A stretch of 64,000 nt of DNA, from contig NZ_WOSV01000001.1 of NCBI RefSeq assembly GCF_011516655.1, positions 186,001-250,000 on the forward strand, written 5' to 3'. Positions 53,219 to 56,089 of this stretch are shown here, in pieces; position 1 is the first letter of the stretch; every line of letters starts with the position of its first letter. Under the pieces are notes generated by a model that worked only from the letters and a program-made list of their open reading frames with translations, did not search any database and was not told the origin of the DNA. The stretch comes from Acetobacter thailandicus (GTDB lineage Bacteria > Pseudomonadota > Alphaproteobacteria > Acetobacterales > Acetobacteraceae). The position numbers were made by a program, and so were the translations under genes.

Positions 53219-53596
53219 TCATTCTTTGAGATAGAAGATGAAGCTTGCAGCGATGTGGATTGCGGACATGAAGGTATGAGCGCAGCGGTCGTATCGTGTT
53301 GCCACACGTCGCCAGTCTTTGAGCTTTGCGAACATGTTTTCGATCAGGTGACGCTTTTTATACAGATGCCAGTCGTAAGGTGGCTTTGATTTCCGGTTCT
53401 TTTTCGGCGGAATACAGGCTGTGATAGTGCGTTCTGCAAGCCATAACCTGATCCTGTTGCTGTCATAGCCCCTGTCCCCGATGATTTCTTCTGTCTTGTC
53501 GGGGAGATCTGCCAGCAGCACGTCTGCACCTTTGAAGTCACTGACCTGTCCTGCAGTCAGATGCAGGCGGACAGGCCGCCCCTGATCATCGCACAT
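53219..53596 (-). CDS. IS5-family transposase, C-terminal frame (orfB)
   Basis: The 125-residue reading MCDDQGRPVRLHLTAGQVSDFKGADVLLADLP...GDRGYDSNRIR...IENMFAKLKDWRRVATRYDR carries the DDE catalytic domain. The Asp-containing GDRGYDS and the final Glu in HLIENMFAKLKDWRR are the second and third catalytic acids. It lacks its own good start; homology to single-frame relatives continues upstream in this frame (RTKGGLNSKLHA), so it is most likely made as a fusion with orfA by -1 frameshifting. Confidence 0.9.
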   Translation of the reverse strand: MCDDQGRPVRLHLTAGQVSDFKGADVLLADLPDKTEEIIGDRGYDSNRIRLWLAERTITACIPPKKNRKSKPPYDWHLYKKRHLIENMFAKLKDWRRVATRYDRCAHTFMSAIHIAASFIFYLKE

Positions 53597-53613
53597 GGCA
53601 TGCAGTTTTGAAT

Positions 53614-53997
53614 TCAGACCGCCTTTTGTGCGTCCGGTATGGCGGGGAAAAGCCCTTTTTTAAGCAGAGAGGCTGCCGTTCTGTGCGCTTTAAGGTGCGT
53701 CGCATCGATCATCAGGCGTTTTGAACGGCCCCCCTGTTCTGCCAGGGCTGTAAAGATCCTGTCAAAGACACCCAGGCGGCTCCACCGGATGAAGCGATTA
53801 TATAAAGTCTTGTGCGGGCCATACGCTTTGGGAGCATCTTTCCACTGAAGCCCGTTGCGGATCACATAAACGATCCCGCTCAGAACACGCCGGTCATCCA
53901 CGCGGGGCACGCCGTGCGCCAGAGGAAAAAACGGCTCAATCCGCTTCATCTGGCTCTCAGACAGTAAAAATACGTCACTCACAGGCTCATCCTCCAT
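53614..53997 (-). CDS. IS5-family transposase, N-terminal frame (orfA)
   Basis: The 127-residue product has the DUF4096-type DNA-binding start (SESQMKRIEPFFPLAHGVPRVDDRRVLSGIVYVIRNGLQWKDAP) and the first catalytic Asp in LMIDATHLKAHRTAASLLKKG. Frames switch by -1 near a T-TTC-CCC heptamer at 53644-53650, which has the X-XXY-YYZ slippery form. Confidence 0.9.
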   Translation of the reverse strand: MEDEPVSDVFLLSESQMKRIEPFFPLAHGVPRVDDRRVLSGIVYVIRNGLQWKDAPKAYGPHKTLYNRFIRWSRLGVFDRIFTALAEQGGRSKRLMIDATHLKAHRTAASLLKKGLFPAIPDAQKAV

Positions 53998-55352: not shown

Positions 55353-55585
55353 CGGCGTGTCGTCAGTTAAGCAGAATGATGATTGAGGCGAACTGAACGG
55401 CTGCGAGGAGCGTTGATTTCATCTTGTCGTAGCGCGTTGCAATAGCGCGGAACTGTTTGAGTTTATTAAAGAACCGCTCGACAAGGTTACACCCCCTGTG
55501 AAGAGCGAAGCTGGTTTCCTGTCGTGTATTTCTGTTGCATTCAGGCGGGATAACCGGGGTAATCCCGCGCCATGTCAGTTTGTCG
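55353..55585 (-). mobile_element. C-terminal fragment of a second IS5-type transposase
   Basis: Read on the minus strand the sequence gives ...RQETSFALHRGCNLVERFFNKLKQFRAIATRYDKM then KSTLLAAVQFASIIILLN and a TGA at 55363-55365. NLVERFFNKLKQFRAIATRYDK is the third-catalytic-Glu region of IS427-type transposases, different in sequence from the intact element at 53.2 kb. The N-terminal two thirds are missing. A possible terminal repeat (GGCGTGTCGTCAGTTAA) follows the stop. Confidence 0.75.
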
Positions 55586-55680
55586 ATGAGCCTGTAAGTG
55601 ATGTATTTTTACTGTCTGAACGTCAGATGGAGCGAATTGAGCCGTTTTTTCCTCTGGCGTAATGCTGAGGGTGAGTGAAG
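55586..55680 (+). mobile_element. Transposase N-terminal remnant, sibling of the one at 4.5 kb
   Basis: DEPVSDVFLLSERQMERI then EPFFPLA and TAA match the first residues of the orfA at 53.6-54.0 kb. As in the copy at 4517, homology to the IS ends immediately after the PFFPL codons and continues into TAATGCTGAGGGTGAGTGAAGC. The shared breakpoint suggests a common deleted ancestor. Confidence 0.75.
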
Positions 55681-55783
55681 CATCAGGAGTGAAAAACTTT
55701 TGTCGGTTTTGTAAAATGTAAAACCCGAACTGTAAAACCATCTTTAAAAACGTGAGAAAACTGCCGTTTTTACATCAAAGGTA

Positions 55784-56089
55784 TGTCCGCGGCGGGATTC
55801 GAACCCACGGCCCCAGGATTCATACCACTTCGGTTTTCACCGCCACCTGCAGCGCAGATGTTCGTGGTCTGGACTGTCCCTTTGCCCTGGGTATGGCTAC
55901 CTTTAGGCACCGCCCATCCAGTCTCTACACCTTCCGCTCTCCATACAGAGAACGGCTTGGCTCGGGATTGGCACGGTCGTAGCAGACCGGAGCGTTCCCC
56001 GAATTTGAGCGGATACACCATGCAGTTTCCCGACATGGCGCCCAATTGCATTAGGAATCCTGTGCTCTATCCTGCTGAGCTACGCGGAC
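55784..56089 (-). tRNA. tRNA-Arg(CCU), interrupted by a group I intron
   Basis: Read on the minus strand, the 5' exon (56089-56053) gives acceptor GTCCGCG, TA, D-stem GCTC/GAGC and anticodon stem CAGGA plus loop TTCCT. The 3' exon (55820-55784) gives AA, stem TCCTG, variable GGGCC, T-arm GTGGG-TTCGAAT-CCCGC, acceptor CGCGGAC and discriminator A. Joining the exons makes a standard cloverleaf with anticodon CCU. CCA is not encoded. The 3' end faces the accessory zone at 52-55.8 kb, a usual orientation for island integration. Confidence 0.95.
55821..56052 (-). ncRNA. Group I intron (IC3-like), 232 nt, no ORF
   Basis: The intron lies in the anticodon loop immediately after base 36. Its 5' exon ends in U and its last base is G, as group I chemistry requires. 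The exon end CCU with intron AAU pairs to AUUGGG across a GCA loop, a 6-bp P1 with the U-G pair exactly at the splice site and a 3-base guide GGG. P2 (GCCATG / CATGGT), the AAATTCGGGG element, GTGCCAATCCCGAGCC, AGAGACTGGATGG and GACAGTCCAGACC follow in the order of the conserved P, Q, R and S elements; P7 is GACTG (55919-55923) with CAGTC (55872-55876). Group I introns in tRNA-Arg(CCU) are known from Agrobacterium. No homing endonuclease is encoded. Confidence 0.92.

Follow-up and report, generated by a model that had tools for sequence, protein, structure and literature searches.

In the genome of Acetobacter thailandicus, a single tRNA-Arg(CCU) gene was found, and it is interrupted by an insert that, with a probability of about 0.96, is an IC3-like group I intron without an open reading frame (ORF), placed immediately after the anticodon. 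The gene occupies positions 56089 to 55784 (306 nt, minus strand) of the window, as we call the whole stretch of 64,000 nucleotides that was analyzed, and all features of the gene described below are read on that minus strand. The identification is based on the two exons, a full-length match to the Rfam group I model, and the conservation of the intron helices in 66 distinct sequences.

Anatomy of the split gene and group I features

The 64-kb window was searched for tRNAs with ARAGORN. With default settings, zero tRNAs were called; when introns were allowed, a tRNA-Arg(cct) with a 232-nt intron was returned at this locus. The 5' exon (37 nt, 56089–56053) runs from the 5' strand of the acceptor stem to anticodon nucleotide U36 and thus ends in CCU, the intron (232 nt, 56052–55821) ends in G, and the 3' exon (37 nt, 55820–55784) runs from tRNA position 37 to the discriminator A73, with the CCA end not encoded. 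By reading of the sequence, the insertion site is in the anticodon loop, directly 3' of the anticodon. When the exons were joined, the resulting 74 nt (77 nt with CCA added) formed a cloverleaf that was scored as tRNA-Arg(cct), and the same scoring gave no tRNA score for the gene with the intron left in. The split tRNA-Arg(CCU) gene is confirmed. An earlier note on this DNA had given these coordinates, the 232-nt length and the 5' U / 3' G boundaries, had expected a normal tRNA once the insert is removed, and had proposed an intron-allowing tRNA scan as a check; the exon and insert positions, the joined-exon score and the ARAGORN result all agree with it.

Two listed ORFs of at least 90 amino acids overlap the insert. 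Neither matched a Pfam family, and no maturase or endonuclease gene was recognized in them, so an intron-encoded mobility gene was rejected for the pair searched and the earlier description of the intron as ORF-less stands in that sense. An additional ORF of 76 amino acids (55752–55982, plus strand) lies outside the Pfam-searched pair. A scan for promoters and terminators yielded one promoter-like site, on the opposite strand, and zero terminators, neither count exceeding that in shuffled sequence. Elsewhere in the window, an IS4/5-type transposase is encoded in two reading frames (53219–53997), and a 75-nt inverted copy of the start of this transposase, 91% complementary, is located at 55585–55659, just past the 3' end of the tRNA gene.

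To assign the insert to a family, 3001 bases were searched against Rfam. The only match up to an E-value of 1 was to RF00028, the group I intron model, at 55851–56062 (38.1 bits, E = 1.7e-7), and it spanned model positions 1–253 of 253. The covariance-model search that the earlier note had suggested thus gave a full-length match, but one that falls short of the RF00028 gathering cut-off of 50 bits; a search of the whole window against Rfam at gathering thresholds returned no match. Within the host genome, RF00028 matches once. The score below gathering is the one point in favor of the insert being something other than a group I intron, either an insertion of unrelated origin or a tRNA intron spliced by proteins, a reading we regard as scarcely credible in view of the full-length model match, the ordered P1–P10 elements, the U/G boundary and the covariation described below. 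Moreover, in the portion of PMC4033280 that concerns them, tRNA introns of the protein-spliced kind are ascribed to archaea and eukaryotes and not to bacteria.

The insert carries the boundary features of a group I intron, as the U at the end of the 5' exon pairs with a guide G and the last intron nucleotide is a G. GAAA loops on P2 and P9 that dock into P8 and P5 are a criterion for subgroup IC3, and GAAA loops are present in the sequence of both P2 and P9 of the window intron. The strands of P4 are separated by 31 nt and there is no P5abc extension; P5(a–d) is described as absent from IC3 introns in the relevant part of PMC11835236. The missing P5abc supports an IC3-like label, as would the GAAA loops if they dock in this way into P8 and P5, and the group I call and IC3-like class that had been proposed earlier are borne out by the RF00028 match, the lack of a P5abc-sized extension and the helix counts.

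Conserved helices and proposed splicing

Homologues were sought in genomes of the genus and the family and in titled genome records. They were recognized through a family search, a DNA match or an exact core pattern, and the set is therefore biased toward close kin. This resulted in 177 candidate contexts. If an insert was located between TTCCT and a matching GAA-plus-stem junction, the context was retained as a tRNA-Arg(CCU) intron, a strict rule that was satisfied in 70 cases; many of the remaining 107 contexts are introns in other tRNAs. After one intron (L055, 314 nt with an odd 5' end) and three exact duplicates were dropped, 66 sequences, including that of the window, were aligned with MAFFT without structural information, the helices were drawn on the window intron, and paired cells were counted over all 66. 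The 5' exon ends in CCU and the intron in G in all 70 introns, both of which the search rule demands. TGGG, which the rule does not demand, is found within the first 22 nt of 68 of the 70.

The P3–P8 core with its guanosine site in P7 is present. The P3 strands (56012–56007 and 55915–55910) are paired in 396/396 cells, with two-sided changes in 3/6 pairs, and the P7 strands, GACUG (55923–55919; the guanosine site by homology) and CAGUC (55876–55872), are paired in 330/330 cells with no two-sided change, in agreement with the ordered core and pairing P7 noted earlier. In the P4–P5 domain (56003–55961), P4 (56003–55998 with 55966–55961) is paired in 368/396 cells with no two-sided change, distal P5 in 239/264 with two-sided changes in 4/4 pairs, and lower P5 in 145/198 (73%). 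P6 is paired in 198/198 cells with no two-sided change and P6a in 404/506 with two-sided changes in 8/8 pairs (P6/P6a, 55961–55929); G55961 contributes to the counts of P4 as well as P6, its two pairs being mutually exclusive. P8 and its distal hairpin (55909–55883) are paired in 292/330 and 245/264 cells, with two-sided changes in 4/5 and 4/4 pairs, respectively.

Outside the core, the P2 hairpin (56039–56017, GAAA loop at 56029–56026) is paired in 391/396 cells with two-sided changes in 5/6 pairs. P9 (55868–55824) contains two inner hairpins, the second of which is closed by GAAA at 55838–55835; P9, P9a and P9b are paired in 316/330, 414/444 and 259/264 cells, with two-sided changes in 2/5, 6/7 and 4/4 pairs. 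P1 is formed by the anticodon CCU (56055–56053), whose last base, U56053, belongs to the U-G pair at the splice site, and the internal guide GGG (56043–56041). This pairing is kept in 161/163 cells with no two-sided change, consistent with the three-base guide recognized previously. The AUU just 5' of the guide (56046–56044) is the P10 partner of AAU in the 3' exon (55820–55818; 193/198 cells paired, no two-sided change) and can alternatively serve as the 3' side of a P1 extension, which is paired in 127/180 cells (71%).

Because no two-sided change was seen in P1, P4, P6, P7 or P10, these helices carry no covariation. As a control, the 3' partner of each helix was slid by one base, upon which pairing dropped sharply in most helices (P2 to 89/396 and P9b to 67/264) and less in P1 (120/163), the P1 extension (107/180) and distal P8 (168/264). 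Conservation of the helices in 66 distinct sequences, with compensatory changes in many of them, makes the match to RF00028 more than chance, and chance inverted repeats were rejected as the origin of the helices.

In the splicing pathway that we propose, the precursor would fold such that the intron GGG (56043–56041) pairs with the anticodon CCU as P1, with the U-G pair at the cut. A guanosine held in P7 would then cut after the exon U, and the freed U would attack after the terminal G of the intron (55821), aided by the P10 pairing of AUU with AAU. Joining of the exons would release the 74-nt tRNA body, to which CCA would be added. We infer guanosine-initiated self-splicing from the anatomy and from a homologue that is known to splice; the splicing chemistry, activity in the strain and CCA addition are likewise drawn from homologues and general knowledge. 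That homologue is BbgpI, in the tRNA-Arg(CCU) of Bartonella bacilliformis, which according to an excerpt of PMC7717549 self-splices in vitro and splices in vivo. We consider the intron of the window very probably functional.

Relatives, distribution and inheritance

The locus is ordinary, an additional member of a known family that has already been reported from acetic acid bacteria. A sporadic family of tRNA-Arg(CCU) introns in alpha-purple bacteria is attributed to Paquin 1999 in the consulted part of PMC7717549, and Table 1 of PMC4596401 records one tRNA-Arg split by a group I-homologous sequence in the genomes of five of six acetic acid bacteria, including Acetobacter pasteurianus. The latter inserts resemble the window intron in the amino acid of the tRNA, in occurring once per genome and, by inference, in bacterial family; the table footnote that records them gives neither structure nor anticodon. 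With these five genomes and a full-length match in 48 of 49 genus genomes, the earlier view that such an intron is notable in an acetic acid bacterium does not hold.

Host gene, site and sequence kinship place the window intron in the alphaproteobacterial tRNA-Arg(CCU) family. Identity over aligned positions was computed for 10 chosen homologues out of 70; it was 72–77% for the nine named ones and 83% for the tenth, which comes from a genome of the genus. As the values for Agrobacterium tumefaciens (73%), Bartonella sp. (74%) and Gluconobacter (74%) are so close, identity alone does not place the window intron nearer its own family. The introns of Agrobacterium and Bartonella share with it the host tRNA, the site after CCU and the compact architecture, whereas the peripheral hairpins differ both in sequence and in size, the 70 introns ranging from 215 to 314 nt. 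Splicing is shown for BbgpI, whereas the window intron is known from sequence, and the 74% figure for Bartonella sp. refers to a homologue other than BbgpI. The Azoarcus-type intron, a group IC3 intron in tRNA-Ile(CAU), is likewise inserted in the anticodon loop but differs in host tRNA and guide.

A tree was built from 52 core sequences, 11 of 63 rows having been dropped as they were not caught by the core expression. The five nearest rows to the window intron are all tRNA-Arg(CCU) introns, four from the genus and one from the family, and an intron from an Acetobacter metagenome-assembled genome (MAG) falls into the same six-row set (support 96/93); one genus intron (L099, from G117) is placed in another part of the tree. 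The rows with Arg(CCU) introns, 27 in all, do not form one clade, and a single clade was not rejected by the AU test (p = 0.21). The searched core word is shared by betaproteobacterial introns, whose host is printed by ARAGORN as Met(cat) and read here as tRNA-Ile(CAU), and these introns lie beyond a supported branch (95/99). The core word was also found in at least 117 stretches of genome records (L103–L219), which include Planctomycetota, Patescibacteria, Chloroflexi, Actinomycetota and a Methanosarcinaceae MAG; introns of such a type are thus common across several phyla. Among the matches listed, ARAGORN hosts, unchecked individually, were Ser, Phe, Thr, Asn, Arg(UCU), Leu, Met(cat) and Arg(CCU), and 20 of 118 had no ARAGORN host call. 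No host tRNA was called by ARAGORN in the Methanosarcinaceae stretch.

The exception among the 49 genus genomes is G187, in which the match covers positions 276–299 of the 306-nt query. All 30 genus loci that were fetched, including that of the window's genome, were called as Arg(cct) with an intron by ARAGORN; the remaining 18 of the 48 were judged from match coordinates. A partial second copy of the gene's 3' portion is present in G152 (C1:1816988–1817095, L256, query 204–306) and in G174 (C1:2229869–2229913, L257, query 262–306), such as might remain after an integrating element had used the gene. In a census of the family by exact patterns, the interrupted type of 3' junction was matched in at least 104 of 299 genomes and the uninterrupted type in at least 68, with zero genomes in both lists. 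The exact patterns miss carriers, as two of eight sampled genus members (G030 and G154) have the full-length gene and no pattern match. An Rfam search of 150 family genomes gave a match in 39, of which 7 were above the cut-off, and this search undercounts because two intron carriers of the genus (G030 and G117) were missed.

Intron and rpoB trees were compared for 27 of 28 genomes, G136 being dropped because its rpoB is in two pieces. These pieces (L247 and L248; 715 and 723 amino acids) overlap, perhaps through a frameshift or an assembly error. Of the 24 splits in the intron tree, 9 recur in the rpoB tree, against a mean of 0.18 and a maximum of 3 after shuffling, and the other 15 do not; intron and rpoB distances are correlated (Spearman 0.52; 0 of 2000 permutations equally high). 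In the intron tree, three rows from other genera join three genus rows (95/97), the branches with good support require the genus label to change at least twice, and a single genus clade was not rejected by the AU test (p = 0.30 with seven rows, 0.42 with six). The simplest reading of these trees is that the intron has been inherited mainly with the host lineage in the genus; transfers between lineages, perhaps several into the genus, may also have contributed.

AGG decoding and introns in other tRNAs

The genome, a draft of 45 contigs, contains 47 other tRNA matches, among which tRNA-Arg(UCU), tRNA-Arg(ACG) and tRNA-Arg(CCG) are present. None of the 47 is a second CCU gene; an intact tRNA-Arg(CCU) elsewhere in the draft was thereby rejected, and the split gene is the only cognate AGG decoder found. 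A tRNA-Arg(UCU) could read AGG via wobble, and AGG accounts for 15 of 6813 codons in 15 window genes, 8 of which contain it. The earlier statement that a decoder of AGG depends on the intron therefore holds for the cognate CCU decoder, but since tRNA-Arg(UCU) is present, AGG decoding overall need not rest on the intron alone. The presence of tRNA-Arg(UCU) and the rarity of AGG would also fit a decayed intron that no longer splices, leaving a dead tRNA-Arg(CCU) gene and tRNA-Arg(UCU) as the sole reader of AGG, as would the 127 of 299 family genomes that match neither exact CCU pattern, which may be pattern misses. Decay is nevertheless very improbable, as the exons and the core are intact, compensatory change keeps several helices, and 36 of the 70 homologues carry the most frequent 5' exon, the figure for the most frequent 3' exon being likewise 36. 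A functional, splicing intron is the reading that we retain.

Related introns are located in other tRNAs as well. In six of the 49 genus genomes (L263–L268), tRNA-Lys(UUU) is split after CUUU by a related group I intron, 210 or 217 nt long, and one further tRNA-Lys(UUU) intron was found in another genus of the family (L060); the joined exons scored as tRNA-Lys(ttt) in all seven. By exact pattern, an uninterrupted Lys(UUU) gene was matched in 41 genus genomes. The six with the intron, which include two genomes of 68 and 86% completeness, are absent from these 41, and the interrupted gene may therefore be their only Lys(UUU). G117 and G187 match neither the interrupted nor the uninterrupted Lys(UUU) pattern. 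Judged by title, the publications found on group I introns and tRNA-Lys concern nearly exclusively organelles or eukaryotes, with one on a cyanobacterium, Arthrospira. Other group I introns in the family have Asn(GUU), Thr(GGU) twice and Leu(UAA) as ARAGORN hosts (L044, L050, L061 and L069), and that in L072 was called as Ile(gat) and read by eye as Leu(UAA). The labels SeC(tca), His(atg) and Ile(gat) that ARAGORN gave to related loci were rejected as artefacts of misplaced splice sites: the junction rule assigns the three His(atg) rows to the Arg(CCU) introns, the SeC(tca) row is Lys(UUU) after splicing, and the Ile(gat) row is the Leu(UAA) of L072. Many different intron sites in tRNA genes thus seem to occur within one bacterial family.

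The retention of the intron in 48 of 49 genus genomes without a recognized mobility gene, together with the related introns in other tRNAs of the family, among them what looks like the sole tRNA-Lys(UUU) of six sister species, is the ground for a further reading, in which the intron would be maintained and not merely tolerated, and splicing of such tRNAs could control translation, for example in response to guanosine or magnesium supply. We consider this regulatory role very unlikely.

The value of the locus is mainly one of annotation. The default tRNA finder and the Rfam gathering threshold are both silent here, so that the tRNA-Arg(CCU) gene can be overlooked and the decoder wrongly taken as absent. 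A nearly universal ORF-less intron within the genus, against its mixed presence in the family, also lends itself to the study of how introns of this kind are retained, and if the interrupted gene is the sole Lys(UUU) copy, an essential tRNA may hang on splicing in six genomes of the genus.
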